Shown here: positions 16,240 through 59,010 of the stretch, one piece after another
Numbering within the stretch: position 1 is the stretch's first letter
How the letters are laid out: every line of letters begins with the position of its first letter
NCBI RefSeq assembly: GCF_900184265.1
Contig: NZ_FXXA01000002.1
Coordinates: forward strand, 434,001-498,000
DNA: 64,000 nucleotides
Source of the DNA: Eggerthella timonensis
GTDB taxonomy: Bacteria > Actinomycetota > Coriobacteriia > Coriobacteriales > Eggerthellaceae
Reading direction: 5' to 3'
Program-made: the position numbers and the translations under genes
The notes under the pieces: model-generated
Databases searched by the model: none
Told to the model about the DNA's origin: nothing
What the model saw: only the letters and a program-made list of their open reading frames with translations

Positions 16240-17616
16240 TTAGGCGGCCCGTCTCAGGTAGTTCATGTACCTCGTCCCGATGCCGAGCCCCGTGTTCGGC
16301 ACGTAGCCCGCATAGAGGTCCAGCGTGTAGGCCGAGCTCGCATGGCCCATGAGCACCGACACCGTCTTGATGTTCTCGCCGTTGGCGAGGTTCAAGGTGG
16401 CGAAGGTGTGGCGCAGGGCATAGGGCCGCACGCCCTCGAAGCCGACTTTCCTGGCGAACTCGTCCCAATTCCTCTTCCAGTTCTGATATGACCAGACCGT
16501 GATGCCGGGAGAGCAAAGGGGCATGTTCATGGTCGGCCTGAGGCCCATTTCCCGCATCAGCTTGGACTTCAGCTCTATCCACAGCTTCGCGACGTCCGCA
16601 GTGTAGGCGTCGACGGGGACCGAGCGCCGGGAGGCATCGGACTTGGGGTAGTCGATGATCTCCTTCCCGTCGCGGCTGACCACGCTCGTGATCTTGATGA
16701 CGGTCTCGTCCTCACCGAAGATGATGTTGCCCGTGCGCACCGCGAGCATCTCCTCCGGCCGCATCCCGGTGTTGAGGAGCAGCAGGAGGCTCAACTTCAA
16801 GAAGCCGACCGCCAGCAGCTCTACCTCGTGCAGGAAGCGCGCGGCGTCGTCGGCCATGAGTGGGTCGATGAGCGGCTTGCTCTTCTTGAACACGCGGGTG
16901 AGGAACTTCGCCTTGGCCACGTTCTTCGCGATGTCCTCTTTCTCCAGGGCGTAGTTCATGACCTCGCGCAGGAACTTGAGGATCTTCGCCTGCTTGTCCG
17001 GGCCCGCCACCCTAAGGGGCTTGAAGGGCTTAGCGAGTGACCCGTGCCTCTTGGCCCACTCGGCGGTCTTGCGGTTCTCCTCCCACGCCTTCTGGCGCTC
17101 GAGGGCCCACTTCTCCGACAGCTCGGGGACCTTGAGAAGGCAGTCCTCGATGTCGTCGGAGGTGACCTCGTTGATCGGGATGCTCCCGATGGTCGCGTTC
17201 ACGTACCTCGCGTTGGACGTCTCGTTCCTGATGGTTTCGGGAGATACCGAGCCGTTGCTGCGGATGGCGATGTAGCGCTCGATGTAGTCGCCGAGCGGCG
17301 TGGTGCAGAACTCCCCCTCACGCTGCCCGGCGTCCCGCCTCACCCATCCGCGCTCTTCCAGCCTTCTTTCGAGCTCTTCGTTCTTCTCGTCCTCGAACGC
17401 CCTCGCCTGCGCCTTGAGGTCGTCCTTCTTGTTGAGGGCGAACACGGTGCGCGTGAGCTTCCTCTTCCCGTCGAAGTAGGCCCGGTACTCTGCCGGCACC
17501 CTGATGGTGAGCTCGTAGGCGGTGGCCCTGGGGTCTTTGCGCCTGCGGCGCGGCAGCCCCTTCTTCTTGCGCGCCTCGTCCACGTTGTAGGGCTTGTCGC
17601 ATGCCAGCCTGCCCAA
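16240..17616 (-). CDS. int: ICE tyrosine recombinase (integrase)
   Basis: About 458 residues. The N-terminal third resembles the arm-binding region of Tn916-type integrases, followed by a SAM-like core-binding domain. The catalytic domain shows [10 protein letters not shown] (first Arg), ALRHTFATL (H-x-x-R) and [17 protein letters not shown] (His and nucleophile Tyr). It should integrate and excise the element at tRNA-Gly. I chose a TTG start at 17616 because GAGGAGG lies just upstream; a GTG at 17685 would overlap the excisionase gene. Integrase next to the tRNA is the usual ICE end layout. Confidence 0.92.
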
Positions 17617-17629
17617 GGCAATCGCCTCC

Positions 17630-17893
17630 TCATTCCGCGCGGCGATCTTTGTAGAGGTAGTTGAGAAGCGCCAGCTTCGGCACAAGCCAGCGAACCCCGA
17701 TGCGGCACCCCCGCATCTCGTCGCGGGCGAGCAGCTTGCGTATCTCCTGGCTCGTCGTGCCCGTGAACGCGGCCACCTGGTCTGGCGTCATCATGTAGGG
17801 GTAACCGTTGAGCATGAACAGGTAGAGCCCGTCGGGGTCGGCCGCTACGAGCCGGTCTTCGTCAACTTCCACCTCGCCGCAGTTTCCGTCCAT
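17630..17893 (-). CDS. xis: Excisionase / small helix-turn-helix protein
   Basis: 87 residues starting MDGNCGEVEVDEDRL, with a MerR-like winged helix (MTPDQVAAFTGTTSQEIRKLLARDEMRGCRIGVRWLVPKLALLNYL) of the kind found in Tn916-type Xis proteins and helix_turn_helix_17 domains. It lies 13 bases upstream of the integrase start. A strong AAAGGAGG box decides the start. It probably directs excision by bending the attachment site. Confidence 0.8.
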   Translation of the reverse strand: MDGNCGEVEVDEDRLVAADPDGLYLFMLNGYPYMMTPDQVAAFTGTTSQEIRKLLARDEMRGCRIGVRWLVPKLALLNYLYKDRRAE

Positions 17894-43236: not shown

Positions 43237-43992
43237 TCAGCGCCGCCTCTCGCAGTACACGAGGTAGCGCTGCGCGTTGGTCGGGAAGGGGTGGCAGGTG
43301 AGCAGGGTCACGAGATCGCGCCCGGGCTGGATGAGGACGGCTTCGCGGTCCCCCGGGTCGATCACCCTTATCTCGGACACCCGGTATTCGAGCTTGCCGA
43401 ACGGGTTGGCCACCTCCACCTCGTCCCCCACCTCCAACGACTCTATATCGCGGAACATGGCCGCGGTGGCCATGCCCCGGTGCCCGGCTATGACGGCGTT
43501 CGTGCTCTCGCCGCCGATTGGCGCGGACGTCTCGCCGAGCAGCGCCGCCCCCCGCGCCATGTTCTCCTCGCTCGCCCCCAGGTACACGGGCACGCGCAGG
43601 CCCATCTTCGGCACCTCCAGGTACCCGATCATGTCCTCGTCGAAGCCGTAGGCCGCGAGGTCGACGGCCGGCTGCTCGTAGGAGAACGGGTCCTTGAGGC
43701 CCGCCTGCCCTTCCTCGAATATGCGCCCGTTGTAGGCCTCGAGGTCGGCCAGCAGCCGGTCCAGGTCCTTGCCCGACGCCGACTTCCCCGCAGCAGCCGC
43801 GCCGCCGTACTCGACGTCGTAGCGGCCCACGGCCTGCTCGGCATCGGCCCGGTAGAGCGCCTGCATGGCGAACGGGTAACCGATCGCGCCCGCGCCCGCC
43901 GCGATCAGGAGCGCCGCGAGCGCGATCGACGCCTTCCGCGGGGGGCGGGGGCTCGGCCGGCGTCCGGCCGCCTTCCGCGTCCTGCTATCCAA
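43237..43992 (-). CDS. Class C sortase 2
   Basis: About 251 residues from a TTG overlapping the previous sortase. It has an N-terminal membrane helix, a lid DPF (LKDPFSYEQP), catalytic His in AGHRG, catalytic Cys in TLLTC and Arg in NAQRYLVY. Class C sortases with a DP(F/W) lid polymerise pilin subunits. It ends without the C-terminal helix found in sortase 1. Confidence 0.88.
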   Translation of the reverse strand: MDSRTRKAAGRRPSPRPPRKASIALAALLIAAGAGAIGYPFAMQALYRADAEQAVGRYDVEYGGAAAAGKSASGKDLDRLLADLEAYNGRIFEEGQAGLKDPFSYEQPAVDLAAYGFDEDMIGYLEVPKMGLRVPVYLGASEENMARGAALLGETSAPIGGESTNAVIAGHRGMATAAMFRDIESLEVGDEVEVANPFGKLEYRVSEIRVIDPGDREAVLIQPGRDLVTLLTCHPFPTNAQRYLVYCERRR

Positions 43993-44905
43993 CCCGGCCC
44001 CTCCCGCTCCTCCACAGCGCCGCCGTGGCGGCGGCCCAGCCCGCGAGCAGCAGGAGCGTCCACCACGGGAAGGGGTTGCCGTACGCCTGGTCGGCGACGG
44101 TCCCCTCGGCCTCGTAGGGAACACGGGTCCCGCGCACCAGCAAGCGGTGCGAGTTGATGCCGTAGGGGGTGCAGGTGACGAGCGTCACGTGATCCTCGCC
44201 CTCGGCGCGCGCGAGCCCCGCCGTGTCGGAGGGCTCCACCACCGAGATGCGGTCCACCTCGTAGGCCAGCGTCCGCCCGTACACGCGCACGAAGAAGCGG
44301 TCGCCCTCGACCAGCTCGTCGAGGTCGGTGAACAGCCTCGCCTCCGGCAGCCCCGTGTGGGCCGACAGCACGCTGTGGGCGCCCTCGCCGCCGATGGGCA
44401 GCGACGTCTGGGGCAGGTGCCCGACGCCGAGCCGGAGGGCCCGCTCGCTCGTCCCATGGTAGACGGGCAGCTCCACGCCGATGGACGGGATGGACAGGTA
44501 GCCCATGATCCCGTCGTACACGTCGAGGATGCGAGGGTACTCCTCCGCGAGCGACCCCGACCCGTTCTCGGGCGGCGCGGCGCCCCCGTCCGAGAACGGG
44601 TCGGCGGGCGTCGCAGCGGCGAGCCCCTCGTTGTAGGCCTGCGCGAGCGCGAGCTGGTCCTCCTGCTCCTGCGAGGGGGCCTCCTCGACCGCCTGCAGGT
44701 ACGTGCGGACGCTCGCCTGCTGGCCCTCCCGCGCCTGCCACTCCGCGAGCGAGGGGTAGGCGAGGAGCGCCGCCCCCGCGAGCAGCAAAAGCGAGACGGC
44801 GAGGTCGGCCAGGCGGCGCCCCGAGGGGCGCCGCCCGGCCCGGGCGCCCGCGCCCTGCGGGCCCGGCCGGACTGCGTTCGTTGCCTGTTTGGCCGGTCGC
44901 CTCAC
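43985..44905 (-). CDS. Class C sortase 1
   Basis: 306 residues from a GTG: N-terminal helix (~35-50), lid DPF (TPADPFSDGG), catalytic His in SAHTG, Cys in TLVTC, Arg in NSHRLLVRG, and a C-terminal helix, the full class C layout. It lies 18 bases after the pilin gene. With two sortases present, one may build the shaft and the other attach the tip or anchor. Confidence 0.92.
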   Translation of the reverse strand: MRRPAKQATNAVRPGPQGAGARAGRRPSGRRLADLAVSLLLLAGAALLAYPSLAEWQAREGQQASVRTYLQAVEEAPSQEQEDQLALAQAYNEGLAAATPADPFSDGGAAPPENGSGSLAEEYPRILDVYDGIMGYLSIPSIGVELPVYHGTSERALRLGVGHLPQTSLPIGGEGAHSVLSAHTGLPEARLFTDLDELVEGDRFFVRVYGRTLAYEVDRISVVEPSDTAGLARAEGEDHVTLVTCTPYGINSHRLLVRGTRVPYEAEGTVADQAYGNPFPWWTLLLLAGWAAATAALWRSGRGRVG

Positions 44906-44923
44906 GGACGCGCCCCCTCCGGC

Positions 44924-46348
44924 CTACGCGGCGTCGCGCTTGCGGGAGCGCGCAACCAGGTAGAGGCCGCCGCCGATGAGCAGGATGCCCGCCGCGGCGA
45001 ACGGGATCACGCCCATGCCGCCGGTGATGGGCAGCAGGAAGGCGTCCTCGCCCTTCATGGTGTTGGAGATGGTCTTAAGCACGTCATAGGATCCAGTGCC
45101 CGCATCCTTCTCCACCGTGAACTCGGTGTAGGTGCCGTCTGCCGGGGCCTCGTAGCCGGCGGGCGCCTTGACCTCCTTCAGGTAGTACGTGCCCTCGGCG
45201 AGGTCCGCGTAGGCGATCTTGCCGTTGGCGTCGGACGTCTGGGTGCCGAACGCGGCGACCTTCACGTAGCTGCCGTCGGCGGCCTTGGTGTAGAGCTCGA
45301 ACTGCGCGCCGGCGAGGGCGGCGTTGTCCTTCTTGTCGACCTTGGTGAGGTCGAGGTCGCCGAAGCCGATCTCGGGATCGATCGGCGGGTTCGGGCCGGG
45401 GCCGTCGGGGTCGACGGGGTTGGTGCCCGAGTCGCCGCTCACCGTGGCGCCGAGGGAGTTCGTGTAGTCGACGTGCGCCTGGTTCGGGATCGGGTTGCCG
45501 TCGATGGTGACGATCTTCGTCTGGAACTTCACCCAGATGGAGTCGCCCGCGGCGACGGCCATGCCGTTGAGCGCGGCCGCGTCGATGGTCCAGGTGACCT
45601 TCGCGCCCGCTATCGCCTCGGTGAAGGCGACCGGGGTTGCTGCGGCCTGCGTGGCGCCCACGCCGACGGTCGCGGAGTTCGCCACGTAGGCGAGGCGGGC
45701 GTCGATCGTGTCGCTGACGACGAGCTTCTTGCCCGTTGCGTAGTCCTCGGGCACGCCCACCTTCACGTACCAGTCGACCGTGTCGCCCACCTGGGCGCCG
45801 GGCTCGACATGCCCGCCCTTGTCGACGGGCGGGGCGCCCTCGACGGTGTTCTTGGGGTACACGTGCACCGTGCTCGCCAGCGTGCCGTTGATGTTCATGG
45901 GCAGGCGCACCAGGAACGGCGCGGCCTTCGTCGCGACCGCGGCGTTGTCGGTCTCCTCCACGTAGTACAGGCCCTCGTCGAGGCCGGTGAAGCTCGCCGT
46001 GCCGTTGGCGGCCGTCGTCTCGGTGCCGGCCGGGGCCGCGCCGGCGCCGAGGTAGGTGCCCTTGTCGGCGGCGACCTTCTCGGCCGTGATGTCGACGTCG
46101 GCCTCGTGGCCGGCGACGACCTTGTACGCCTTGAACTCGACGTTCTCGAGCGGCTGGGCCCCCGTCGGGGGCGTGATCTCCGTGCCGTCGCCGGCGGTGC
46201 CGCCGGTCCAGCTCGTGTCCTGGTACTTGTGCACCTCGATGCCGAACGTGCCGGCGCCGAACGCGGCCGCCGGCAGCATCAGGCAGGTCATGGCCGCAGC
46301 GAGCGCGAATGCCGCCGCCCGCTTCGGGAGCGATGATGATCTCATCAT
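44924..46348 (-). CDS. Major pilin, SpaA/FimA family
   Basis: 474 residues: a signal peptide ending AAFGA, CnaB-type domains, a pilin motif VYPKN with the likely crosslinking Lys166, a D2 isopeptide fimbrial domain, an E-box YYLKEVKAPAGY, sorting signal LPITG, membrane helix and RSRKR tail. The shaft is formed when sortase C links LPITG of one subunit to the YPKN lysine of the next. GGAGAGG precedes the ATG at 46348. A GC-rich hairpin (46390-46417) lies in its leader. Confidence 0.94.
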   Translation of the reverse strand: MMRSSSLPKRAAAFALAAAMTCLMLPAAAFGAGTFGIEVHKYQDTSWTGGTAGDGTEITPPTGAQPLENVEFKAYKVVAGHEADVDITAEKVAADKGTYLGAGAAPAGTETTAANGTASFTGLDEGLYYVEETDNAAVATKAAPFLVRLPMNINGTLASTVHVYPKNTVEGAPPVDKGGHVEPGAQVGDTVDWYVKVGVPEDYATGKKLVVSDTIDARLAYVANSATVGVGATQAAATPVAFTEAIAGAKVTWTIDAAALNGMAVAAGDSIWVKFQTKIVTIDGNPIPNQAHVDYTNSLGATVSGDSGTNPVDPDGPGPNPPIDPEIGFGDLDLTKVDKKDNAALAGAQFELYTKAADGSYVKVAAFGTQTSDANGKIAYADLAEGTYYLKEVKAPAGYEAPADGTYTEFTVEKDAGTGSYDVLKTISNTMKGEDAFLLPITGGMGVIPFAAAGILLIGGGLYLVARSRKRDAA

Positions 46349-46487
46349 GCGATCCTCTCCTTCGTATAGTCGTTCCGTCTCTCGTTCTTGCCTGCGGCGC
46401 CTTCGGGGGCCGCAGGCCTTCAATGTGATCGCCGGGTCGTCAACCTCCTCGACGGGCACCACCTCCTTCAAGGCGCTTAGGCGCGGC

Positions 46488-49400
46488 CTAGCGGCGACGG
46501 GGGAGGTGGTTGCGGCGCAGGTGCAACGCGAGCGCCGCTCCCGCCATCATCGCGAGCCCAGCGAGCGCGAAGGGCACCGTGCCCGGCCCGCCCGTCACCG
46601 GCAACACCGTCGGGTCGGAGATGGGGCCGGTCGCGGAGTAGCCCGCGTTCACGTGCGAGACGTCGACCTTGCTGAGCGTCACCGACGCCTCGCCGGTCGC
46701 AGGATCGAATTTGGATGCGCTAGGATCGCCGGGCGCGCCCATTTCTACGAGCTCGTAGCGCGAGGAGGGGGCCTGAGCCGTCAGCGCGTAGTCGCCATGG
46801 CTCGGGACCGCCAGGCTGTACTTGCCGTCCGCGCCCGTCGTGGCGGACAGGACGGCGCCCGTCACCGCGTTGGCGGTGGAGACCGAGACCCCAGCCAAGG
46901 GGGAGCGGTCGGCCTCGGGGGCCGCCGGCTCCGCCGCGGCGGCTGCAGGCTCCTGCGACCAGGCGTAGCCCGTGACGAGGAAGTCGACGAGCGCGAAGGA
47001 GTTTTTCGCACCGTACGCGCCCTCTCCGCGGTACCAGTCGGTCGCGTCGCCGAGCTTGAAGTTGTAGTAGATACCGGAGTACGCCATTTTATCGCCCGTC
47101 TCCGCCTTACGGTCGCTCGTGTAATGGACGACAGGGAAGCGCTTCTCGCGCGCCGCCATCTCGGGGATCGCGATGCGAATCATGGTGACCTGCGACCAAT
47201 CGGATATGGCGGACTCATCGACGTAGGTGCCCTCCGCGCCCCCGGTCAGGTCGAAGGACGGCGTGTCGTCGATGCAATACGTGACCACGGCGTCGTCGCC
47301 CGCGTCCGTGACCGGGCCGGTCAGGTTCTGCGAGTAGTCCGACGGCGCGGTCTCCTTGACGCCGAGGTTTCCGTCCTCCTGCTCCTGGTACCGGGCGGAC
47401 AGCCCGGCCTTCGGCACGGGCACGTACGCGATCCAGTCCTTGGTGGCGCTGTCGACGTGCGACACCAGCGACAGCTGCTGCCCGAAGTCGCTATCGTCGT
47501 GCCCTTCGACGTCGGAGCCGAGGGCCGCGTCTGCCGTCGCGAGCGCGCTCGCGCCCACCTCCACCAGCTCGAGCACGTTCTGCTTCGCGGACATGGATGC
47601 CATGTAGAGCGGCGTTCCGACGGGAAGGCCCAAGTCGCCCGCCGCGTCCGTCGTGGTGTTTTCCAGCACGACGGGCACGAAGCCCTCGTCTGGCGCCCCG
47701 GTGCTCGCGTTGAAGTCAGCCCAGATCTGAACGACCGGCACCTTCCCCGAGCCGGGGTTCGCCATCGGCTTGACGCGCAAGTCGAAGGAGTACTCGAACG
47801 CTAACGGCGCAGAGTAATTGGCTTGCGAGTAGAACGTGTAGTCTGGTATTTCCACCTTCAGCACAATATCGCCGTCCGCAGTGAAGTAAGTTGTCGCCAC
47901 TGCGTCTTGGCCCACCACCCGCATCGAGGCTGCCTCATATGCGAAATCCTTGTCGATTTTGAAGTAATACGTGGGCGACTGCACTTTGTAAGCACCGGCA
48001 TACTCCACAGAAGCGCTCAAGTAGCCCGAGTACGTGAAGGTGTCTCCTTGGTAGACGCTTGAGGATTTGGTCGAGCCAGAAGCTGCGAATCCCATGATCT
48101 TCGCCGTTGCCTTGTTGTAGAACGAGGCGCTTTCGCCGGCCCTGTCGTACGAAGTCGAGTTGGCTGCCGAAAACATCGCCTTCACCGGGTAGCTGGTCGG
48201 CTCGTCGGGGAAAGGCTCGTCGGGGTTCACGAAGCTCCACGAACGGTCCGACATGAGGAGCTCGACGGTCACCGCGGATTGAGGATCGAACTGCTTGCTG
48301 TCGTTCATGGGCACGAACTTAAGAGAAGTCAGGTACTCCCCTTCTTGCAGACCAAGATCGATATTGTCGCGATAAGGCTCGGACAAGCGGGGAGCAGGAT
48401 CCAAGTTGGTCGTGTACTGAACGACATGGGACTGGGTAAGAAAGCCCCCGCTCACCCGCACTTTGCTTACAAGCGCCAGGACGCGCGGATCGGTGCCGGA
48501 GAGATCGACCTCCATTCCCTGGTAGAGAAGTCGCTTGCTATCGGCGTTTTTGGCGAATTTGATTCGTGCGATCGGGATATTGTTTACATGGCCGCTACCA
48601 GAAACCGGGTAGTCATCTGGGCAGTACGTGAACCACGACATGTCCTCGACCGATAGTATTTGCTGGTCGACCGCCTTGTAGAAGCGCGTGCTAAAGGCAT
48701 AGGTTCTATTGTTTGAACCCGGGGCAGTCCAAGTAAAACTCGTATAGACGGTTTTCCCATCCAGATCCGTTTCCGGAGCAGAGGGGAGGCTTCCGGGCAC
48801 AACAGCTTGAGAGTTCAGGGAAATGCTGTCGGCAAGGTTTCTGCCGTCGAGCGTTTCGAAGCTAAAAGACAACGCTGTCAGGTATTCCCCTTCTGGAACG
48901 TAATCCTTCATAGAGACGGTAAGACCCCAAGGGTTGCTAAGACCTGCATCGGATGCCTTTACCGTGCCCGTCGTGCCTGCGTTGGTGGAGTACTCGACAA
49001 CGGCCTCTTTCAACCTGGAGGTAAAGGTCAACCGATCCACCACACCCAAGATAGCCGGATCGTCGATCGTCACCTTGAGATCTTCGTATGTCTTTGTATA
49101 ACCGGAGCCGAGAAACCTAAGGTCTCCGATGCTTTGCGACGACAACCCGATCCCAACGTCAAACACCGAGCTCCGGATGGCCAGATCGTCTTTTGGAGCT
49201 GCGATCTTCAAGGAGAAGTTGCCCGTTGACGATGGGACGGATTCCGTTAGGGAGGTGAGCGAGTAGTTGCAGTACACCGTTTTGTCGGGTACGGCGGTCC
49301 CGTCCGGATACACTGAGCGAACGTCCATGGCGAAGCCCCAGGCCGTAGGCAGGGAGTTGCCATTCCCGAAGACGGGGCCGCGGTATTTTGCCTGGACAAC

Positions 49401-50954
49401 CCATTCGTCATTGGGGTCCAGACTCGGAACTGCATCCGCCTTGATGCTGTTCCCTTTGTTCGTCACGTACGTCCAAGCGCCGCCGTACGCATCCGACGCC
49501 GCCTCTTTCAGTACCACTTCGACGGGGAAGTCGATGACCGCCTCGGCCTGCTTGATCGCGATGTTGGGATATGCCTGGGTAAACGTGAGTCCCATGGTGC
49601 CGGAGATGCCCGTCTCCCCCGCCATCACTTCCTGTTTCCATGGACGAGAAAAAGAGAACGCACGTTGCGCAGCAGCCGGAACCGAAGTATCCAACGTTAG
49701 CTTTTTGTCAAAGCTCCACGTTGCGCCAGCGTCGGGCACCGACGATTGGAAGCCCATGTCGGACGATGACGAATACAGCTCCTCCGAGAACATGGCGCCT
49801 GTGGACAACGGCTTCAGGGAGAACTCCATTTTCAGAACCGCCGAGCTGTCTTTGCCATACGCGTGGTCGAACATGAAGTAACCGCTGCCGGAGCTCGTAT
49901 TCGGTCGATAATAGTAGTACTCGCTATCCGAGGTGACGGGCTCAGCCCCGGTTACACTCGCCATCCCGAGAACATCTCCTTCCGCAGAGACGAGAGAGCG
50001 GGGCACGGCGATTCTGAAATCTGCATCATGGGCGGTATAGGCCCTCTTCGTGACGGTCAAGGAGTAGGAGACCATAGGACGACTCGATGTCGACACGTCG
50101 CCCCAAGACTTGGCGGCATTGTCTATGGCGAAGGAGTATTCGGCCGGGGCGAACTTGGCGGTCTTGAAGTCGAGGTAAGAAGAGCCGACCGGCTCCGCGC
50201 CGCCGGCGTTCGTATACGAGTCCAGGGCGAATCGCTGCACCACGTCGGCGGCGCTCGCCATATCGTAGATCGCCTCTGCGTTCTGCAAGACCACGATGTC
50301 GAATGCCACGTCCACCGAAACGTCGTCGCGCAGCTTGACCGTGAGGGTTTTCGAATCCTTGCTTTTCTCTATCGTGCCGGACTCGAGGGACGTCGGCGCC
50401 GTGGTTATGCTGAAGCCGTCGGGGGTCTTCACCGTGAACCACCTGCCGGACTGGCTGGGGTCGGGGCGGTAGAGGACCGAGAGCCTGATGTCCGTTTGCC
50501 CGGCAAGACCCGGGAGGAAGTTCTCCGGGTCTACTCCGGCGTCGATGCTCGATTGGGCGAGCCTGACCTCTGTGTCGCCGAGCGCCAGGGTCGAGGCGCT
50601 CTCCATGGCGTCCGCGCTCCCCGATTCGGTGCCTGGCTGGGCACTCGACTCGGCAACCGGCGCGTCTGATTCGCCCGGACCCTCGATATTCAACGAAGGC
50701 TGATCCGGCGTCGGAGAATCAGCCTCCGACTCAACAGGCTGGGAGGTCTCGGCTCCTTCCGAAGAACCGTCTTGCGCGGCGCGCGCGCCCTCTGCGTTTT
50801 CCGCAGTTGTTGCAGCGGGGGAGTCCGCTGCGTACGATAACTGCACGGGAGCGGCGAGCGCAAGGGCGAGCAGGACGGCGAGCGCAGATCTGGCCGCCAT
50901 GCTCGGCGAAGGCCGCTTCCTCCTTTCGCTAATCGTTACTGGCCCCATAGCCAC
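46488..50954 (-). CDS. Giant LPXTG surface adhesin, probable pilus tip
   Basis: 1488 residues: signal peptide (~18-43), acidic Ser/Glu/Pro-rich stretch (~44-115), a very long beta-rich body with no domain I can name, a CnaB-like domain near the end (GAVLSATTGADGKYSLAVPS), sorting signal LPVTG, helix and RRNHLPRRR tail. GC content falls noticeably in the central part (about 47.8-50 kb), so this body may have been acquired separately. Position before the major pilin and sortases suggests the tip adhesin. It starts inside the end of the Rrf2-like gene. Confidence 0.9.
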   Translation of the reverse strand: MAMGPVTISERRKRPSPSMAARSALAVLLALALAAPVQLSYAADSPAATTAENAEGARAAQDGSSEGAETSQPVESEADSPTPDQPSLNIEGPGESDAPVAESSAQPGTESGSADAMESASTLALGDTEVRLAQSSIDAGVDPENFLPGLAGQTDIRLSVLYRPDPSQSGRWFTVKTPDGFSITTAPTSLESGTIEKSKDSKTLTVKLRDDVSVDVAFDIVVLQNAEAIYDMASAADVVQRFALDSYTNAGGAEPVGSSYLDFKTAKFAPAEYSFAIDNAAKSWGDVSTSSRPMVSYSLTVTKRAYTAHDADFRIAVPRSLVSAEGDVLGMASVTGAEPVTSDSEYYYYRPNTSSGSGYFMFDHAYGKDSSAVLKMEFSLKPLSTGAMFSEELYSSSSDMGFQSSVPDAGATWSFDKKLTLDTSVPAAAQRAFSFSRPWKQEVMAGETGISGTMGLTFTQAYPNIAIKQAEAVIDFPVEVVLKEAASDAYGGAWTYVTNKGNSIKADAVPSLDPNDEWVVQAKYRGPVFGNGNSLPTAWGFAMDVRSVYPDGTAVPDKTVYCNYSLTSLTESVPSSTGNFSLKIAAPKDDLAIRSSVFDVGIGLSSQSIGDLRFLGSGYTKTYEDLKVTIDDPAILGVVDRLTFTSRLKEAVVEYSTNAGTTGTVKASDAGLSNPWGLTVSMKDYVPEGEYLTALSFSFETLDGRNLADSISLNSQAVVPGSLPSAPETDLDGKTVYTSFTWTAPGSNNRTYAFSTRFYKAVDQQILSVEDMSWFTYCPDDYPVSGSGHVNNIPIARIKFAKNADSKRLLYQGMEVDLSGTDPRVLALVSKVRVSGGFLTQSHVVQYTTNLDPAPRLSEPYRDNIDLGLQEGEYLTSLKFVPMNDSKQFDPQSAVTVELLMSDRSWSFVNPDEPFPDEPTSYPVKAMFSAANSTSYDRAGESASFYNKATAKIMGFAASGSTKSSSVYQGDTFTYSGYLSASVEYAGAYKVQSPTYYFKIDKDFAYEAASMRVVGQDAVATTYFTADGDIVLKVEIPDYTFYSQANYSAPLAFEYSFDLRVKPMANPGSGKVPVVQIWADFNASTGAPDEGFVPVVLENTTTDAAGDLGLPVGTPLYMASMSAKQNVLELVEVGASALATADAALGSDVEGHDDSDFGQQLSLVSHVDSATKDWIAYVPVPKAGLSARYQEQEDGNLGVKETAPSDYSQNLTGPVTDAGDDAVVTYCIDDTPSFDLTGGAEGTYVDESAISDWSQVTMIRIAIPEMAAREKRFPVVHYTSDRKAETGDKMAYSGIYYNFKLGDATDWYRGEGAYGAKNSFALVDFLVTGYAWSQEPAAAAAEPAAPEADRSPLAGVSVSTANAVTGAVLSATTGADGKYSLAVPSHGDYALTAQAPSSRYELVEMGAPGDPSASKFDPATGEASVTLSKVDVSHVNAGYSATGPISDPTVLPVTGGPGTVPFALAGLAMMAGAALALHLRRNHLPRRR

Positions 50955-51486
50955 TCTCCTTTCCTTTCGACGGTCCTAGTGTGTTCGTAACGCAGGCATC
51001 GCGCGAGCCGAGCATTGCGGCGGGCACGGAAAAGTCGTCAGAGGCAGTCGGGCCGTCCCGGCCGAGCATCAGCCGCTCAAGCGTCGCCTCTCGAAGGATT
51101 TCGTCCATGCGAAGGTCGACGAGGGCCAGGGCCCGCACGGCGGAATCGAGCCTTTCGGCTCCTCGCCTGGAGACGGGGTCCGAAACGAGCTTCCGGCGAG
51201 AAGGAGGGTCTTCGGGGCGGACGCAGGCGACGGCGTCTCTGCGCCCTTCCATGGCTGTCACGATGTCGAAAAGGGAGGCGTTTTCGGCCGATCCCGGCAA
51301 GCAGTAGCCTCCCGCATGCCCTCGAATCGAGTCGATCAGGCCGGCTTGGCGGAGCTTGGAAGCTGCTTGCGCGACGGAAGCCGCAGGTATTCCCGTGAAG
51401 GCGGCTATGTCCTTGGCGCTGCGCATGCCGCCGTAGGAAGCGAGGCATAGGGCGATGAGCACTGCGTGCTCGGTTGTCGTCTTCAT
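50929..51486 (-). CDS. Rrf2-family transcriptional regulator, first gene of the pilus cluster
   Basis: 185 residues with the Rrf2 winged helix (TTTEHAVLIALCLASYGGMR, DIAAFTGIPAASVAQAASKL, QAGLIDSIRGHAGGYCLPGS) and FDIVTAMEG. The three-cysteine iron-sulfur site of IscR is absent, so it may sense something else or nothing. It begins 22 bases from the left inversion site and overlaps the adhesin gene by 26 bases. Any promoter for it should therefore lie in the invertible segment. Confidence 0.87.
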   Translation of the reverse strand: MKTTTEHAVLIALCLASYGGMRSAKDIAAFTGIPAASVAQAASKLRQAGLIDSIRGHAGGYCLPGSAENASLFDIVTAMEGRRDAVACVRPEDPPSRRKLVSDPVSRRGAERLDSAVRALALVDLRMDEILREATLERLMLGRDGPTASDDFSVPAAMLGSRDACVTNTLGPSKGKESGYGASND

Positions 51487-51508
51487 AGCGCTGCCCCGGT
51501 CTTCCCCG

Positions 51509-51540
51509 GGCTGCTACATAATGTCGATTATGTAGCAGCC
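51509..51540. repeat. Left inversion site
   Basis: Arms GGCTGCTACATAAT and ATTATGTAGCAGCC flank the centre GTCG. The same 32 bases occur at the right site with the centre CGAC, which is the reverse complement, so the two sites are in inverted orientation. Confidence 0.88.
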
Positions 51541-51849
51541 GGAATGGGTGCGAAACGCCTCGGCGTTAAGAGCGTGCCGTTTCGAGGTTTGGGCAAAGGC
51601 ATTTTTGCGCAGAGTTGCCCACCTCGATCGCCGAAGGCGAAGCAGCGATGGCCCCGTTTAGAGCCGGGGTCTAGTTGGCGTGCCCGAAGGCGGGAATTCA
51701 CGCGTTGCCGGGCGCGCCTGTAAGGCTCCCGTTGAAAAAACGTTTTCTATTTGTCTAATCTTTTGTTATGATGCCGGTAGCTTATATTTCGCCAAGGGCG
51801 CTCCATGGCGAAAAGACATGCGAAATTCGAGCGGGCTGCTACATAATCG
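51524..51849. mobile_element. Candidate invertible promoter segment (phase switch)
   Basis: About 325 bases between the centres of two oppositely oriented recombination sites. No convincing gene lies inside. The only strong promoter points to the right, into the 3' end of the recombinase gene on the wrong strand. After inversion its -10 box would fall near 51617 on the minus strand and drive the Rrf2-adhesin-pilin-sortase genes with a leader of ~120 bases. The copy seen here is therefore the OFF orientation. This is inferred from sequence, with no read evidence of inversion. Confidence 0.75.
51732..51759 (+). promoter_or_regulatory. Promoter inside the invertible segment
   Basis: TTGAAA, 16 bases, TCTAAT: 5/6 matches in both boxes, within an AT-rich stretch in an otherwise GC-rich region. 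It faces away from the pilus genes in this copy. Confidence 0.72.
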
Positions 51850-51871
51850 ACATTATGTAGCAGCCCGCTCG
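51828..51871. repeat. Right inversion site (44-bp near-palindrome)
   Basis: 20-bp arms (CGAGCGGGCTGCTACATAAT and complement) flank the centre CGAC. The inner 32 bases equal the left site in reverse complement. It ends 4 bases before the recombinase stop codon. Confidence 0.9.
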
Positions 51872-51875
51872 TTCG

Positions 51876-52730
51876 TCAGGCCACAAGGCCCAGATGGGCC
51901 AGCTGCTGCCGGCACTCCCTCCCGGACGTCATGGTGTATATCTTGGTGGTGGCGAGGCTCGAGTGCCCGAGCACGTCGCTCAGGGCGCTGATGTCCTTGT
52001 GGGCCGAGTAGAACGTGCGGGCGAACAGGTGGCGCAGGTTGTGCGGGTAGACCTTCGCGGCGTCGACGCCGGCCGCCTCTCCGAGCGACTTCATCCTCTT
52101 CCACACGTAGGTGCGGTGCAGCGCGACGCCGTTTTTCGAGCGGAACAGCGCGCCGGAGCGGATGCCCTCCCGCTCGGCCAGGGCCTCGAGTCCCGATTTC
52201 AGCTCCTCGGGTATCCACGCGATGCGGACCTTGCCCTTCATGTTGATGCTCACGAAGCCGTCGGCCAGCGCCTCCGCCGTCACGAACTTCAGCTCGCCGA
52301 CCCGCATGCCGGTGGAGCACAGCGTCTCGAGCATGAGCTTCGCCTTGCCGTCGCCCTGCTCTTCTGCGGCCGCGAGGAGCTCGAGGTAGTCGTCCCTCGT
52401 GAGCTCCTCGCCGGTGCCGAGGTACGTGCGCCTCTGGATCCTCAGCTGCTTGATGGAGAGCTCGGGCTTGCCGAGGAACTTGAAGAAGCTGTTGGCGGCG
52501 GCGATCATGGAGTTGACGCTCGCCGGGGCGTAGCGCTCCACGAGGTCGGACTTGTACATGAGCGCCGACTTCTTGCTGAGGCTCGGCACGGGGGACGAGG
52601 ACACGAACTCGAGCAAGCGCCGCACGTCGCGGGTGTACTTGCTGACGGTGTTGGGCGCCAGCTCGCGCTCGACGAGCCAGTCGCGGTACCTGCCCAGCAG
52701 GACGTTTTGGAACAACCGCGGGATTAGCAT
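51876..52730 (-). CDS. Tyrosine recombinase, probable DNA invertase of the pilus switch
   Basis: 284 residues, XerC/D-like size. A SAM-like core-binding domain (~10-95) precedes the catalytic domain with Arg143 (STGMRVGEL), His230 and Arg233 (PHNLRHLF), His256 (LGHSS) and nucleophile Tyr265 (TTKIYTM): all complete. There is no arm-binding domain as in the ICE integrase. GGAGGTCGCCC precedes the ATG at 52730. Placement beside the paired sites indicates that it inverts the segment. Confidence 0.9.
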   Translation of the reverse strand: MLIPRLFQNVLLGRYRDWLVERELAPNTVSKYTRDVRRLLEFVSSSPVPSLSKKSALMYKSDLVERYAPASVNSMIAAANSFFKFLGKPELSIKQLRIQRRTYLGTGEELTRDDYLELLAAAEEQGDGKAKLMLETLCSTGMRVGELKFVTAEALADGFVSINMKGKVRIAWIPEELKSGLEALAEREGIRSGALFRSKNGVALHRTYVWKRMKSLGEAAGVDAAKVYPHNLRHLFARTFYSAHKDISALSDVLGHSSLATTKIYTMTSGRECRQQLAHLGLVA

Positions 52731-53059
52731 GGGCGACCTCCTTCTGTCGGTTTTTCGCGGCACCTGGGAGGCTACATCTTCGAGGACTTCGGGCCCCGTC
52801 GCGCGACGCGGGGTCTTATCTTTCGCTACCGGAACTCCACCGTTCGGTTACCGTGTCGGCCAGCGGCCTTGCGCCGACCCTCACGTGCACTTTAGCTCAC
52901 GATCGGATTTGGCCGAACCTTTATATTCTTGTTAAATGTCGGGGACGGCTCGGCGGTGTTTACCGTGCGGCCCGCTGACTGGCGATCCCTTTTGGCTGCG
53001 CCGGTGCTGGGCGAGGCGACTTTCTCTCGCATTTGGGCGCTGTTCGCAGGATGGCGGAG
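52731..53059. other. Intergenic region upstream of the recombinase gene
   Basis: 329 bases with no convincing gene. An AT-rich stretch near 52910-52940 may contain the recombinase promoter, but I cannot fit both boxes well. Confidence 0.45.
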
Positions 53060-53581
53060 CTAAACTTCAGGATCGCGCCTCTGCCCTTGGAGGAAGGGGA
53101 CGAGCGAGGAGGGGAGCCCGCAGGCGTTTGCCGACGCCTCTACCGAGTCGCCGTCCTCTCCGAAAGAGCCCCGCATGAGGAAATCGAAGGCCGCCGCAGC
53201 CCGCGGCACGTACTCCTCGGCAACGTCGTACGCCCACGAGAGGGCTGCCGCATCGACAAGCTCGCCGGCTATCTTGACGAGCACCATCTCCCCGTCCACG
53301 GTCAGGCGGTTGAGCTTCGGGATGTCGTTTTCGTCGGCGATCAGGAAGCTCCAGCCGTCGCGCCTGCGGGCGACGGGGAGCCCCGTCGGGCCGGGCTCCT
53401 CTTTGTATGCCGGGGCCGCCTCGTAGTAGTAGGACCGCAGCCACAGGCTCTCGCCGTTCACGTCGGCAAGGTCGAGCGTGTAGTTGGTCAGCAGGTTCCC
53501 GGGCTGGGGGACGCCGTCCACCAGGTGGTCGGTGTCGAACACGTCGATGCGGCCGCCCGCGTAGTACGCCTTGAGGATCAT
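53060..53581 (-). CDS. Conserved-looking protein downstream of the relaxase
   Basis: 173 residues starting MILKAYYAGGRIDVFDTDHL, with beta-rich segments (ESLWLRSYYYEAAP, RDGWSFLIADENDIPKLNRL) and a helical end. It overlaps the relaxase stop by 4 bases (ATGA), so it is co-translated with it. I do not know the family; a role in mobilisation is suggested only by position. Confidence 0.72.
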   Translation of the reverse strand: MILKAYYAGGRIDVFDTDHLVDGVPQPGNLLTNYTLDLADVNGESLWLRSYYYEAAPAYKEEPGPTGLPVARRRDGWSFLIADENDIPKLNRLTVDGEMVLVKIAGELVDAAALSWAYDVAEEYVPRAAAAFDFLMRGSFGEDGDSVEASANACGLPSSLVPFLQGQRRDPEV

Positions 53582-54816
53582 CTTCCCTTCTCCTCCGTCC
53601 TGCCTTGCCGTTGCCTGGAGGCCTGCGGCAGGTCGGAGCGGGAGCCCCGCCCGGCCTCTGCGCTTCCTCCGCCGCCCCGGGCGCCCCTCGCGCTCGCCGG
53701 CTTGCGGGGGCGGGCCTCGGGCCTCCGCTCCGGGAGGATGCCCGCCGCCCTCGCGTAGCCGGCGATCGCGGCGGCGTCCCGCAAGCCCGCGGACGGGTTC
53801 CGTGCGGCGAACGCGTCGAGGTCGGCGAGGCTCGTCGCCCTCGATGCCTCGATGAGTGCGACCGTATCCGACAGCAGGCCCAGCTCCTCGAGGTTGCCCA
53901 CCTCGACCGCGCGCCGGGCGATGTCGGCCGCCTTGCGCCCGCCCTCGCCGGAAAGCCCGCCCATCCCTCCCGCGCGCAGCATCGGCTCGAGCCGCTCGCG
54001 ACCGTAGGACAGCCCGAGCCGCTCCCCGCTCACGCGGCGCGTCGGGTGCTCCGCGAGCGCGTAGACCCAGTCGCGGCGCGGGGCCTTCGGCGAGTTGTCG
54101 GAGACGGTCACGCCCAGGGAGGCCAGGATGCCCCTGAACTCTTCCTCGCTGCGCGCCGCGGCCCGCGCGACGCGCACGCGGGCGCGGATGTCGGCCGTCC
54201 AGGAGTAGTCGCCCCGCCCGAGGATCTCCTTCTCGGCCCGGCGGGCGTATTCGCCGCGGTACGTCGCGGGCCGGGCGCGCGGGCTGCGCCTCTCCGCGCG
54301 GGCGGCGACGCCCTCTGGCTCGGGCGGCTTGAGGGCGCGAAGCCCCCTCTCCTCGGCCATCCTCTGGAGCGACGCGGCGAGCGCCTTCGGGTCGGGGTCC
54401 TGCAGGCGCCGGCCCGTCTCCAGGTTCGTGTTGTTCACCACCACGTGCGCGTGCGGGATGCCGTTCTGGTTGTCGTCGTGGTAGACGACGGCCACCTCGT
54501 GGTCGGCGAAGTGCTCGGACGCCCACGCGGCGGCGAGCTCGCGGAGGGCCTCGAGCGAGATGCCGTCCCTCGGGTCGGGCGACACCACGTAGTGCTTGTA
54601 GGTGCGCACGCGCTTCCCACGCCAGGGAAGGTCGTTGCCGAAGGCGCGGCGCGTGGAGTCCATGGCCCGCGCCCAGTCGAGGGGCCGGCCGGGCTGCTCC
54701 GGGCCGGGAGCGTCGATGTTTATGAGGTCGGTCGCGAGCGCGCGGTTCTTCTTGGTGAGGTAGCGGAAGATGCCGCGGGCGGAGGTGTGGCCGGAGATGG
54801 TCTTGAGCATCGGCAC
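53578..54816 (-). CDS. Relaxase (MobA/VirD2, MOBP-like)
   Basis: 412 residues. The N-terminal ~150 form a relaxase domain with a likely nucleophile Tyr19 (IFRYLTKKN) and a metal-binding triad His113, His122 and His124 (VYHDDNQNGIPHAHVVVNN). It nicks oriT and pilots the strand through the VirD4/VirB4 channel. The C-terminal half is charged and Arg-rich. It lies directly after the MobC-like gene. Confidence 0.92.
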   Translation of the reverse strand: MPMLKTISGHTSARGIFRYLTKKNRALATDLINIDAPGPEQPGRPLDWARAMDSTRRAFGNDLPWRGKRVRTYKHYVVSPDPRDGISLEALRELAAAWASEHFADHEVAVVYHDDNQNGIPHAHVVVNNTNLETGRRLQDPDPKALAASLQRMAEERGLRALKPPEPEGVAARAERRSPRARPATYRGEYARRAEKEILGRGDYSWTADIRARVRVARAAARSEEEFRGILASLGVTVSDNSPKAPRRDWVYALAEHPTRRVSGERLGLSYGRERLEPMLRAGGMGGLSGEGGRKAADIARRAVEVGNLEELGLLSDTVALIEASRATSLADLDAFAARNPSAGLRDAAAIAGYARAAGILPERRPEARPRKPASARGARGGGGSAEAGRGSRSDLPQASRQRQGRTEEKGR

Positions 54817-54822
54817 GGCGGA

Positions 54823-55233
54823 TCACCGCCCGAGGAACGCGAGCGCCGATTCCAGGAGCGCCGACGTCTCCTCGCGCAGCGCCGAGACGCCCGGCTGCAT
54901 GGCCTCCAGCTTGAGGCGCGCCCGCTCCAGCTCCTCGAGGACGTCGGCGGCGTCCATGTCGTTCGCGCGCAGGTAGTAGGCGATGGCGTTGAGCGCGTGC
55001 ACGGCCTGGTTGTAGTGGTGTCCCCATCGGCGCATCTCGCGCGCGAGCTTCGCGGCGGTCGCGCGGTCAACCACGACGAGGCGCGGGCCGTCCTCGATCG
55101 CGTCGGCGGGCAGCTGCAGCAGGCAGCGGACGAGGTCCGAGAGCGTCATGCCGAGCGAGGACGCGAGCGCCTTGGCGCGGGCCGTCTCGCCTTCCGACGC
55201 CCTCACGTGGATCTGCTTGGGGTGCCTCTCCAA
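54823..55233 (-). CDS. MobC-like relaxosome accessory protein
   Basis: About 136 residues with a ribbon-helix-helix start (KQIHVRASEGETARAKALAS, GMTLSDLVRCLLQLP) and WGHHYNQAVHALNAIAYYLR, the typical bacterial MobC/plasmid mobilisation core (G-x-N-x-N-Q-like). It ends 6 bases before the relaxase start. The start is uncertain; I use a TTG at 55233 that removes a poor 74-residue extension. Confidence 0.85.
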   Translation of the reverse strand: MERHPKQIHVRASEGETARAKALASSLGMTLSDLVRCLLQLPADAIEDGPRLVVVDRATAAKLAREMRRWGHHYNQAVHALNAIAYYLRANDMDAADVLEELERARLKLEAMQPGVSALREETSALLESALAFLGR

Positions 55234-55433
55234 GGTCGGCGCTGCCTTTCGCTCTCGCGGGTTCCCGCTTCTCCAGGGGCGCGGGGCATCCCCCGCCGAA
55301 GCATAGCCGAGCGCGAAGCGAGGCGTGCGATCCCAGGGCCGGAACGGGGACGCCCGTCCCCGTTCCGATGACGACGGCCCGGCCCGCCCGGGCGGGCCGC
55401 CCGCCGGGGCCTGCCCCGAGCGGCTGCGAAGAT

Positions 55434-55462
55434 CTATTCCGTGGACTGTGTACACGGAATAG
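55434..55462. other. Inverted repeat upstream of mobC: candidate oriT feature
   Basis: Perfect 10-bp arms CTATTCCGTG and CACGGAATAG separated by 9 bases, in the 299-base gap between mobC and gajA. Inverted repeats next to the nick site beside mobC/relaxase genes are typical of oriT, but the nick site cannot be placed. It could also be a terminator or operator. Confidence 0.5.
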
Positions 55463-55471
55463 GCCTCTTGC

Positions 55472-55499
55472 TTGGCTTGGGATCAAGTCGGACTATAAT
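55472..55499 (+). promoter_or_regulatory. gajA promoter
   Basis: TTGGCT, 16 bases, TATAAT (perfect -10), 34 bases upstream of the gajA start. Confidence 0.65.
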
Positions 55500-55532
55500 T
55501 AGCCACACCATAAGGTTTTGAGAGAAGGCGCC

Positions 55533-57158
55533 ATGATAAAGAGGGTATTGGTACGCGGGTTCCGCATTCTCCGCTACTTCGAGTGGAAACCAAAGGCTGG
55601 TGTCAACATCATCGTTGGCGACAACGCTTCTGGAAAGTCAACGATTCTAGATGCCATCGAGTTGGCGATGCGCTGTCGATTAGGCGGATCAAAGGCCGTT
55701 GAGTCGCTTGACCCTCATTGGTTCAACAAAGACGATGTAGACGACTTTTACGACTCCATGAGAAAAGGAGATGGAACCGTCAAACCTCCTGCGATACTCA
55801 TAGAGCTCTATTTTGAGAAAGACCGTGGCGATATCGCCCATCTTCAGGGTGCAAACAACTCCCTAGAAGAAGATGCGCCGGGAATCGCTCTATCGATCAC
55901 CGTCGACGACGACCTGCGTGAAGAGTTCTACTCGGTTGCACGTCAAGACGAACGCAAGGAACATCTTCTGCCAGTCGAGTACTACTCCGTCTCGTGGCGA
56001 TCGTTCAGAGGAGCACCTTTGGCAAAAACGCCCGATTCGGTGGCATGCTTTCGCGTCGATGCAAATCCGGCTCGTTCAGCGTATGTCGTAGATTATTACG
56101 CAAGGAACACCGTAGATGCCCACATTCTTGACGAGGAGCAGCGCAAAATTGCACGTATGTACCGCGATCTTAAGCAAAGCATCGATGAGGAGGTTTTGAG
56201 CGGCATCGTCGAAGATGACGACGAGGGGATAATCGAAGGGATAAGCTTTCAAATGGACCAGTCTTCACGTTCGGACTGGCGTAATTCCGTGACGATACAA
56301 AAGGAAGGGCTACCTCTATCGCTAGCTGGTCGAGGCGTGCAGGTCGAGGCGAGAACGAGGCTTGCCCTCAAAAAGGCAGCATCGAAGAAAGTGCTGCTCA
56401 TGGAGGAGCCTGAGAATCATTTGTCGCATACCAGTTTGACAAGGCTCATGGGGCTGATAGAGTCCCACCTGTCTGGCCGACAGCTCTTCGTCACAACCCA
56501 TAATGCATTTGTCCTCAATAGACTAGGCCTCGATAAGTTAGCGCTTCTTTCCCAAGGTTGCTCGCCGCGTTGCATCGAAGACCTGAGCGACGATACCGTC
56601 GCCTACTTTCGCAAACAAAGCGGCGTCGATACTCTCAGAATAGTACTTGGAAAAAAGATCGTTCTAGTCGAGGGCCCCTCCGACGAAATGATATTCAACT
56701 GGGCTTACGAGATGAAGCATTCGAGCGATCCCCAGAGCAGCGGCATCGACGTTATCTCCTATGGTGTTCGAGGCAAGAGGGCATTGGAGTTAGCCAGCGC
56801 TTTGAACAAGGGACCCGTTGCTGTTTTGAGGGACAACGACGGCAAGCCGCCGGAAAAGTGGAAGAACGATGCCAAACCGTACTTGAACGATCGCAGGCGC
56901 ATGTTCGTTGGCGAAAACATCGACCTTAAGTCCCTTGAGCCGCAGATGGTCGCAGCGAACGAACGCAACCTGGCAGCATTTGCAAAACTAGTGGGGTTCG
57001 ATGGCGTTCCGAATTCTTCTGAAATTGTCGATTACATGAAAGACCATAAGACAGACTGGGCTTGGGCCTTTGTTTCGTGCAGCTCGCCCGAAAAAGACAA
57101 TATGGTTGCTCCAGAATATATCGCAGCCGCCGTGGAATTCATCAGCCAAGATGAATAA
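55533..57158 (+). CDS. gajA: Gabija-like defence protein GajA: AAA ATPase/TOPRIM (OLD-family) endonuclease
   Basis: 541 residues: SMC-like Walker A GDNASGKST (29-37), ABC-type signature PLSLAGRGVQ, Walker B VLLMEEPENHL, switch TTHNAF, then a C-terminal TOPRIM domain with Glu380 (LVEGPSDE) and Asp434/Asp436 (RDND). This is the OLD-family layout of GajA, which cleaves invading DNA when nucleotides are depleted. ATG 55533 follows GAGAGAAGG. GC content is lower than in the conjugation genes, a sign of separate acquisition. It overlaps gajB by 8 bases. Confidence 0.87.
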   Translation: MIKRVLVRGFRILRYFEWKPKAGVNIIVGDNASGKSTILDAIELAMRCRLGGSKAVESLDPHWFNKDDVDDFYDSMRKGDGTVKPPAILIELYFEKDRGDIAHLQGANNSLEEDAPGIALSITVDDDLREEFYSVARQDERKEHLLPVEYYSVSWRSFRGAPLAKTPDSVACFRVDANPARSAYVVDYYARNTVDAHILDEEQRKIARMYRDLKQSIDEEVLSGIVEDDDEGIIEGISFQMDQSSRSDWRNSVTIQKEGLPLSLAGRGVQVEARTRLALKKAASKKVLLMEEPENHLSHTSLTRLMGLIESHLSGRQLFVTTHNAFVLNRLGLDKLALLSQGCSPRCIEDLSDDTVAYFRKQSGVDTLRIVLGKKIVLVEGPSDEMIFNWAYEMKHSSDPQSSGIDVISYGVRGKRALELASALNKGPVAVLRDNDGKPPEKWKNDAKPYLNDRRRMFVGENIDLKSLEPQMVAANERNLAAFAKLVGFDGVPNSSEIVDYMKDHKTDWAWAFVSCSSPEKDNMVAPEYIAAAVEFISQDE

Positions 57159-58260: not shown

Positions 58261-58268
58261 ATGCATAA

Positions 58269-58292
58269 GCCCTCCGGCCGGGGCCGGAGGGC
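58269..58292. terminator. Terminator hairpin between gajB and the YraN-like gene
   Basis: 11-bp arms GCCCTCCGGCC / GGCCGGAGGGC between convergent genes. No T run follows on the plus strand, so efficiency is uncertain. Confidence 0.55.
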
Positions 58293-58316
58293 GCGCCCCT
58301 CGCGGGGCCGGGAGGT

Positions 58317-58694: not shown

Positions 58695-58760
58695 GGTTGA
58701 CCTCCTAAGTCGTTCGGCCGGCCCCTTCGGCCCGCCTCGTGGCCCGGATGCCGCCGGGGT

Positions 58761-58893
58761 CCGCGCGGGCGCGCAAGGGGGGAAGCGAAACCCGGAGGGC
58801 ACCGAGTTTCCGCGAGGCGTCGGCGAGGTTTTCTTCTCGCGGAAAGTTTTCGCGGCCCTTGCGCGCCCGCGCGGTTCTCGGCGAGGATGCGGG
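58761..58893 (-). promoter_or_regulatory. Structured leader element, copy A
   Basis: A perfect 19-bp outer stem (58761-58779 with 58856-58874) encloses GCGAAA/TTTCGC and an inner 10-bp stem TTTCCGCGAG/CTCGCGGAAA. It lies 67 bases before the YraN-like start. The same arrangement occurs in copies B and C with compensating changes. The rest of the 315-base gap holds a second GC-rich hairpin and the ribosome binding site. Confidence 0.72.
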
Positions 58894-59010
58894 CTTCGAG
58901 GCGGGAAGGGACGGCCGGTTCGGGAGAGGACGCGCGGAGAAGAGCGGCGAAGAGAAAGCCCGCCGGCCGAACAGGGGCCGACGGGCTCGCTTGCGGGAGT
59001 CGGCAGGGCC

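Follow-up and report, generated by a model that had tools for sequence, protein, structure and literature searches.

A candidate invertible promoter module between a tyrosine recombinase and a sortase-type pilus operon in Eggerthella timonensis

The stretch of DNA analysed here, which we call the window, covers 64,000 nucleotides (nt) of an Eggerthella timonensis contig (NZ_FXXA01000002.1, positions 434,001 to 498,000, assembly GCF_900184265.1). Between about 51.5 and 52.8 kb, two opposed copies of a short palindromic site enclose a promoter-sized segment, with a tyrosine recombinase gene on one side and the genes of a sortase-assembled pilus on the other. We consider this region very probably an invertible promoter module, that is, a self-contained phase-variation switch. 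The features of the locus, in window coordinates, are as follows.

43985..44905, minus strand: class C (pilin) sortase, NF033745 258.1 bits (cut-off 160)
44924..46348, minus strand: SpaH/EbpB-family LPXTG major pilin, NF033902 235.7 bits (cut-off 95)
46488..50954, minus strand: large proposed adhesin, 1488 amino acids, with every Cna-B/SdrD-like and pilin-anchor match under its curated cut-off
50929..51486, minus strand: Rrf2-family regulator, first gene of the proposed switched operon
51507..51540, plus strand: putative left recombination site, 34 bp, arms GGCTGCTACATAAT / ATTATGTAGCAGCC, centre GTCG
51541..51833, strand not applicable: putative invertible segment, 293 nt, without a credible gene
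51732..51772, plus strand: predicted embedded promoter TTGAAA-16-TCTAAT, a motif match only, pointing right, away from the pilus operon
51834..51867, minus strand: putative right recombination site, 34 bp, centre CGAC, exact reverse complement of the left site
51876..52730, minus strand: tyrosine recombinase, 284 amino acids, proposed invertase, PF00589 E=5.5e-23

An earlier note on this DNA, made from the letters alone, had described two 32-bp sites, inverted relative to one another, with centres GTCG and CGAC. These cores (51509-51540 and 51834-51865) were confirmed, and with flanking bases the inverted identity was found to extend to 34 bp, 100% complementary, with 293 nt between the copies in a repeat search. 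Each site is itself palindromic with 14-bp arms, and the 4-bp centre is the sole asymmetry, so it is the centres that define the sites as opposed. The right site also lies within an extended palindrome (51828-51871). Across the whole 3.9-Mb genome, allowing up to 3 mismatches, the site pattern occurs at these two places only, and the reversed-pattern control gave 0 matches in the same search. The exact pattern had 0 matches in viral contigs, and a search of plasmids found no near-identical DNA. As the note had said of the roughly 0.3 kb enclosed, the 293-nt segment holds no credible gene. On its left, the 34-bp site ends 20 nt from the Rrf2 start codon, and the 32-bp core lies 22 nt from the ATG (51486), the same spacing that the note had given for the Rrf2-led genes.

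On the right, the recombinase stop codon stands 8 nt from the site. The protein carries PF00589 plus a SAM-like N-domain. The catalytic motif of tyrosine recombinases comprises R, K, HxxR, H and Y, all of which are kept here and are invariant in A1; the enzyme thus appears as complete as the note had claimed. Its closest solved relatives by profile are XerD, an XerC-like protein and XerA, and the genome has five PF00589 matches in total. We infer that this recombinase acts on the two opposed sites.

The genes on the left fit a SpaA-type sortase-assembled pilus, with an LPXTG pilin containing isopeptide domains and a class C sortase. The sortase-assembled pilus genes that the note had recognised are therefore supported, the pilin and the sortase forming an operon behind the Rrf2 gene. 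The Rrf2 gene is presumably part of the switched operon, the pilus operon is likely the main output of the switch, and pili would be its phenotype.

We scanned the segment for promoters with a position weight matrix (PWM). The top match was TTGAAA-16-TCTAAT (11.2, p=0.02 over 200 shuffles), overlapped by an equally plausible extended -10, TGTTATGAT, at 51764-51772. Toward the operon, the best match in the 293-nt segment scored 6.6 (p=0.45), which is at shuffle level. We infer that the embedded promoter is active. In the proposed mechanism, the recombinase would exchange strands between the opposed 34-bp sites and invert the 293 bp between them. Because the embedded promoter points toward the recombinase 3' end in the present orientation, the Rrf2-adhesin-pilin-sortase operon would lack its main promoter (OFF). 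After inversion, the transcript would start about 109 or about 122 nt upstream of the Rrf2 ATG, and the pilus operon would be expressed (ON). The cassette of sites, promoter and recombinase would also move as a unit between loci.

To place the recombinase among its relatives, we searched with a five-row profile and found a family member at E<=1e-60 in 16 of 395 genomes of the order. In all, 23 loci were examined, the window included: 15 of the 16 profile-positive genomes, both viral-contig loci, the first 5 of 302 plasmid records and the first of 130 phage-collection records. G068 was dropped from the set, having a 157-residue match only. The loci are not all independent, the dependent groups being the window genome (G000) with G085, a close relative in another genus, and G065 with G054 and G052. 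Several loci carry two names (V054 is L054, V055 is L055, PfaecH21 is L065, SubdH22 is L066, MonoH23 is L067, SubdH24 is L068, SebH25 is L069 and PhageH1 is L070). We counted an opposed pair at the recombinase 3' end when it scored at least 17 and its copies were separated by 100 nt or more. Such a pair was found at 16 of the 23 family loci, including the window. In the same frame, none of 30 control PF00589 loci had one, and the best control score was 14. The controls were the loci of the best PF00589 matches in 21 related genomes, judged mostly Xer-like, and two of them were shorter than 700 nt.

The sites themselves point the same way. The core ACATAAT-NNNN-ATTATGT, allowing at most one mismatch and blind to the centre, occurred in at least two copies in 10 of the 23 loci, in the same frame (G000, G085, G065, G054, G052, G325, L054, L066, L067 and L068). 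At all 10 of these multi-copy loci, not all of them independent, the centres are exact reverse complements. Arms of the CAACGGAA type are seen instead at G301, G221, G344 and G197. In the recombinase tree, all ten rows with the ACATAAT core belong to one 19-row group (88/98, not starred), and these four rows lie outside it; the rooting is unreliable, as the outgroup row L004 was evidently miscut and sits on a branch near 10. We considered whether site-arm type follows the recombinase tree and found that it does so only in part, since G117 and G323, inside the 19-row group, also carry GGAAT-type palindromes. Among the 395 genomes, the core pattern was found in 9 and its reversed control in 4. 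G176, G177 and G210 had a single core match with no second copy, and none of the three is among the 16 recombinase-positive genomes. A scan of genome contigs, from which records near the window genome may be left out, added one distant relative (L015, 27% identity), which was not used.

A few individual loci depart from the common layout. V055 has a 15-bp pair and three sites (L055:6043-6320), and L068 likewise has three sites instead of two (6823-7124), so more than one rearrangement would be possible there. In G197 (L058:2511-2546), the recombinase frame crosses the first site (2511-2536) and stops just inside the segment, and inversion could therefore alter the C-terminus of the enzyme. G068 (L053) retains roughly the first 157 residues of a family recombinase and may be a decayed copy. 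In the Monoglobus record (L067:5232-5642), an Rrf2 gene is found in divergent orientation immediately upstream of the recombinase, which recalls the Rrf2 neighbour in the window.

Within the bacterial family, a relative of the recombinase at E<=1e-40 was present in 8 of 138 genomes, the window genome included, and the site pattern in 2 of 138. The recombinase of G085 is about 99% identical to that of the window. Both sites are present in G085, where both centres have changed together, to GCCG and CGGC, and its 293-nt segment matches that of the window at 97% identity and points the same way. The shared block is:

51501..52783 (1.28 kb): switch cassette common to the window and G085 (sites, promoter, recombinase), with sharp edges

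In a base-by-base alignment, nucleotide identity was 97.5% (352/361) over the sites and segment and 98.4% (838/852) over the recombinase gene, with 14 codon differences, 10 synonymous and 4 non-synonymous. On either side it falls, to 78.5% in the 186 nt of Rrf2 next to the block and to 76% on the upstream side of the recombinase, and the Rrf2 proteins are 62% identical. Further out, 35794-42703 matches G085 at 94.9% and 42705-47786 at 82.5%. The adhesin has no DNA match above 150 bp in G085, and the corresponding place there, the only one searched, lacks the relaxase block (52880-58958). A block at about 98% between flanks at 76-79% looks like a portable cassette. Because the near-identity starts a few bases from the outer edge of the left site, protein constraint alone is insufficient to account for it, and exchange of the switch as a unit between pilus loci would explain it. 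The switch cassette thus appears to move as a unit between loci.

Comparing orientation in related genomes, a check that the earlier note had proposed, gave both orientations across the switch family, so that the refuting case named there, a lack of relatives with the inverted segment, does not apply to the family; the near-identical G085 is OFF like the window. In G054 and G052, a common block CTTGCAAA...GTGCATAAT with TTGCAA-17-CATAAT faces the operon (ON), while in G065 the block is inverted (OFF). Aligning G054 with G065 gave a score of 29 for the inverted and 15 for the same orientation, where 200 shuffles reached 27 at best; aligning G052 with G054 gave 51 for the same orientation and 19 for the inverted one, against a best shuffle of 26. 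A weaker motif in G325 (p=0.04) faces the adhesin-pilin operon there. The strongest motif (p<=0.025) points toward the recombinase in G344, G117, V055, L066 and L067, and toward the operon in L068, which has another at p=0.05 in the opposite direction. Aligned with G065, G054, G052 and G325, the window segment scored at shuffle level in both directions, so the orientation of the window copy is read from its own promoter motif. Orientation, as predicted from these motifs and alignments, varies between species, and this variation does not by itself prove switching within a species.

The genes behind the switch were also compared. G325, from another bacterial family, has the recombinase and the opposed sites together with a fibro-slime LPXTG protein, a pilin of the SpaH/EbpB type and a class C sortase that scores 275.4 bits against a cut-off of 160. 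Its switch and that of the window both face a large surface protein, a SpaH/EbpB-family pilin and a class C sortase. Elsewhere the first gene encodes a VWA-LPXTG protein (G301), a VWA protein with a sub-threshold pilus-ancillary match (G221), a Cna-B/FctA protein (G344), an annotated S-layer protein (L065) or a Wzz-type chain-length protein (L068). The V055 switch faces a diguanylate cyclase response regulator, and the first gene of L066 (1402 amino acids) has no family match. G074, where no pair was detected, is also followed by SpaH/EbpB-type and fibro-slime proteins. In G065, G054 and G052, a cyclic di-GMP (c-di-GMP) class I riboswitch, RF01051, starts at the edge of the second site, scoring 58.1, 47.0 and 45.1 bits (gathering threshold 35):

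L017:8703-8796, L018:9230-9323 and L019:8991-9083: c-di-GMP-I riboswitches at the second-site edge

No second match was detected in any of the three, where 150 candidates were scored out of 184, 166 and 151, respectively. No RF01051 match was found in the window, nor in the window genome (150 of 189 candidates scored), and the two matches in G085 both lie elsewhere. Behind the riboswitch comes a signal peptidase I gene (TIGR02228 above cut-off, SipW model below), in an operon with small secreted proteins judged by inspection to be SipW-dependent or TasA-like, one of them with a sub-threshold camelysin match.

Taken together, the phase-variable promoter switch of the earlier note is supported by the pairing of sites with this recombinase family (16/23 versus 0/30), by both promoter directions in relatives, by the joint change of centres in G085 and by the pilus locus of G325. 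Several observations weigh against it. The match of the window promoter is moderate (p=0.02 in the window genome and 0.01 in G085, the two being non-independent), and a consensus scanner listed neither TTGAAA-16-TCTAAT nor TGTTATGAT. The note's "one clear promoter" therefore holds as a plausible top PWM match that is weaker than those words imply and ambiguous with the extended -10. The scanner did list two 9/12 minus-strand matches (0.2 expected by chance), both with the site arm CATAAT as their -10, and the weak one at 51554-51527 would face Rrf2 in the present orientation. The note's claim of no other evident promoter was thus too strong. Its view that the promoter faces away, leaving the operon OFF, is kept as the best reading of the present assembly, since the best PWM match points right, with leak possible from the Rrf2-facing match. 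Read-through from the recombinase promoter is also possible, although a hairpin of -44.8 kcal/mol (without a T-run) follows the recombinase stop.

Other points against come from the relatives. The sole near-identical one, G085, shares the OFF orientation of the window. The G117 pair is doubtful, as its repeat recurs several times along the contig, and a cautious count is therefore 15 of 23. Seven of the 23 loci (G323, G237, G044, G074, V055, SebH25 and PhageH1) fall below the pair threshold. The G052-G065 alignment favours inversion weakly (22 versus 18, below the best shuffle of 26), and G065 has promoter-like matches in both directions (10.3 and 10.7). G301, G221, L054 and L065 reach p<0.05 in neither direction. 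Finally, the first open reading frames of L067, L054 and L058 have no match above curated cut-offs and are not recognisably surface genes.

Some of these points would also suit a former switch that is now locked OFF, or an operon kept constitutively active by a weak promoter that overlaps the left site. The window and G085 are both OFF, and a weak minus-strand promoter match does overlap that site. We nevertheless regard this as unlikely, because the sites and recombinase are intact, with only 4 non-synonymous codon differences from G085 beside 10 synonymous ones, and because the sites stay exact inverse copies within each genome though the centres differ between genomes.

A simpler account, in which nothing inverts, would treat the two similar palindromes as regulatory hairpins or terminators, one at the end of the recombinase gene and one in the Rrf2 leader. 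Both are predicted to fold strongly as RNA (left site -25.5 kcal/mol, z -6.0; right site -44.8 kcal/mol, z -7.9), and the right one stands 8 nt past the recombinase stop. There is no T-run, however, and a pair of terminators has no need to match inversely right through an asymmetric centre. Both centres also changed together in G085. Opposed pairs also recur with this recombinase family and are absent from the control recombinases, and the common promoter block of the relatives occurs in both orientations. We therefore hold this account to be very improbable.

The switch lies in a region that is supported as being like an integrative and conjugative element (ICE), the setting that the earlier note had given it. 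The left part of the window contains:

16095-16169: tRNA-Gly
16240..17685, minus strand: separate tyrosine integrase adjoining tRNA-Gly, likely the ICE integrase

The conjugation genes in the window include a coupling protein, a CD1110-family VirB4 and a relaxase (PF03432), while TrbL and MobP1 matches were below their cut-offs. The ICE setting thus stands on the integrase at tRNA-Gly, the coupling protein, VirB4 and the relaxase, and the right end is the part that was not found: in the 59.4 kb right of the window, only a 13-nt match (E=0.67) to the tRNA-Gly region was seen, and the end may be farther away or of a different form. With a separate integrase beside tRNA-Gly, the switch recombinase is probably not the integrase of the element. 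That it is nonetheless a mobile-element integrase, with the sites as attachment-site remnants or a resolution site, is the least probable explanation, for although the enzyme is Xer-like by profile and sits among mobile-element genes, inverted sites predict inversion and not excision, another integrase abuts tRNA-Gly (16240-17685), and the pairs in relatives precede surface-protein genes or, in G065, G054 and G052, a riboswitch and signal-peptidase operon.

Several other features were observed in this region. An 18-nt repeat links 16279-16296 with 15001-15018. Left of tRNA-Gly is a GGDEF diguanylate cyclase (10542-12392), though the window genome showed no c-di-GMP-I riboswitch. A second large surface protein of the element (28512-32387), with thioester, T-Q ester-bond and SpaA domains, lies behind the conjugation genes. 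Near the relaxase, in the block missing from the corresponding place in G085, is a Gabija-like defence pair (55518-58260; GajA E=1.2e-138, GajB 3e-88), and an AbiEi/AbiEii toxin-antitoxin-type pair is found at 61820-63219.

The window switch belongs to a known kind, the invertible promoters (invertons) flipped by tyrosine recombinases in gut bacteria, which include the Bacteroides Mpi-type and Clostridioides difficile RecV switches. It resembles them in its short opposed repeats, promoter-sized segment, nearby recombinase and downstream surface-structure genes, and differs in that its recombinase has a single switch as partner, at the 3' end of its own gene. C. difficile also has switches combined with c-di-GMP control (PMC6837544, PMC9286219). 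Its flagellar and cmr loci are examples. The relatives G065, G054 and G052 likewise have a putative invertible element in series with c-di-GMP control of a surface structure, while their target differs (signal peptidase I, with SipW/TasA-like proteins by inspection). The window has no riboswitch, and its operon begins with an Rrf2 gene.

The hCom2 inverton catalogue reports Actinobacteriota invertons at a median of 14 per genome and associates inverton group 139 of Clostridia with tyrosine recombinase group 35; its main text does not mention Eggerthella, Collinsella, Gordonibacter, pilus or pili (PMC11892184). In Bifidobacterium breve, a sortase-pilus ON/OFF switch is reported to work by replication slippage (PMC9187656). 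This is, like the window, a case of phase-variable sortase-dependent pili in a gut actinobacterium, by a mechanism other than site-specific inversion. Eggerthella lenta undergoes megabase capsule inversions at a 16-bp repeat with no adjacent recombinase (PMC13174815), and the Rin shufflon of E. lenta prophages shuffles phage receptor-binding genes (PMC8778435). Both are phase variation by DNA inversion in what we take to be the same bacterial class, and neither is a short promoter switch. Our literature search, with partial coverage, returned no description of this switch or of a sortase-pilus inverton in this class, and catalogue supplements may list some of the loci; a search on c-di-GMP riboswitches in Eggerthella returned nothing.

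Of most interest here are the sharing of the switch as a seeming cassette and the relatives in which it is coupled to a riboswitch. On balance, we lean slightly toward a broader view of them, in which recombinase, sites and promoter form a portable cassette, built on a Coriobacteriia-type and Clostridia recombinase family, that would spread between surface-fibre operons and between genera. Some copies would then stand in series with the genome's only c-di-GMP-I riboswitch, where a random flip may gate the c-di-GMP response through it. For the organism, the window switch would mean a testable on/off control of pili, on a seemingly mobile element, in a gut lineage for which we found few described switches. 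Across the family, the recombinase-plus-sites module seems to have been reused before pili, signal-peptidase/fibre, S-layer and capsule-type genes. A cassette of one enzyme and one switch could serve as an inversion tool, and the riboswitch-coupled copies would make the targets of c-di-GMP in these bacteria directly testable.

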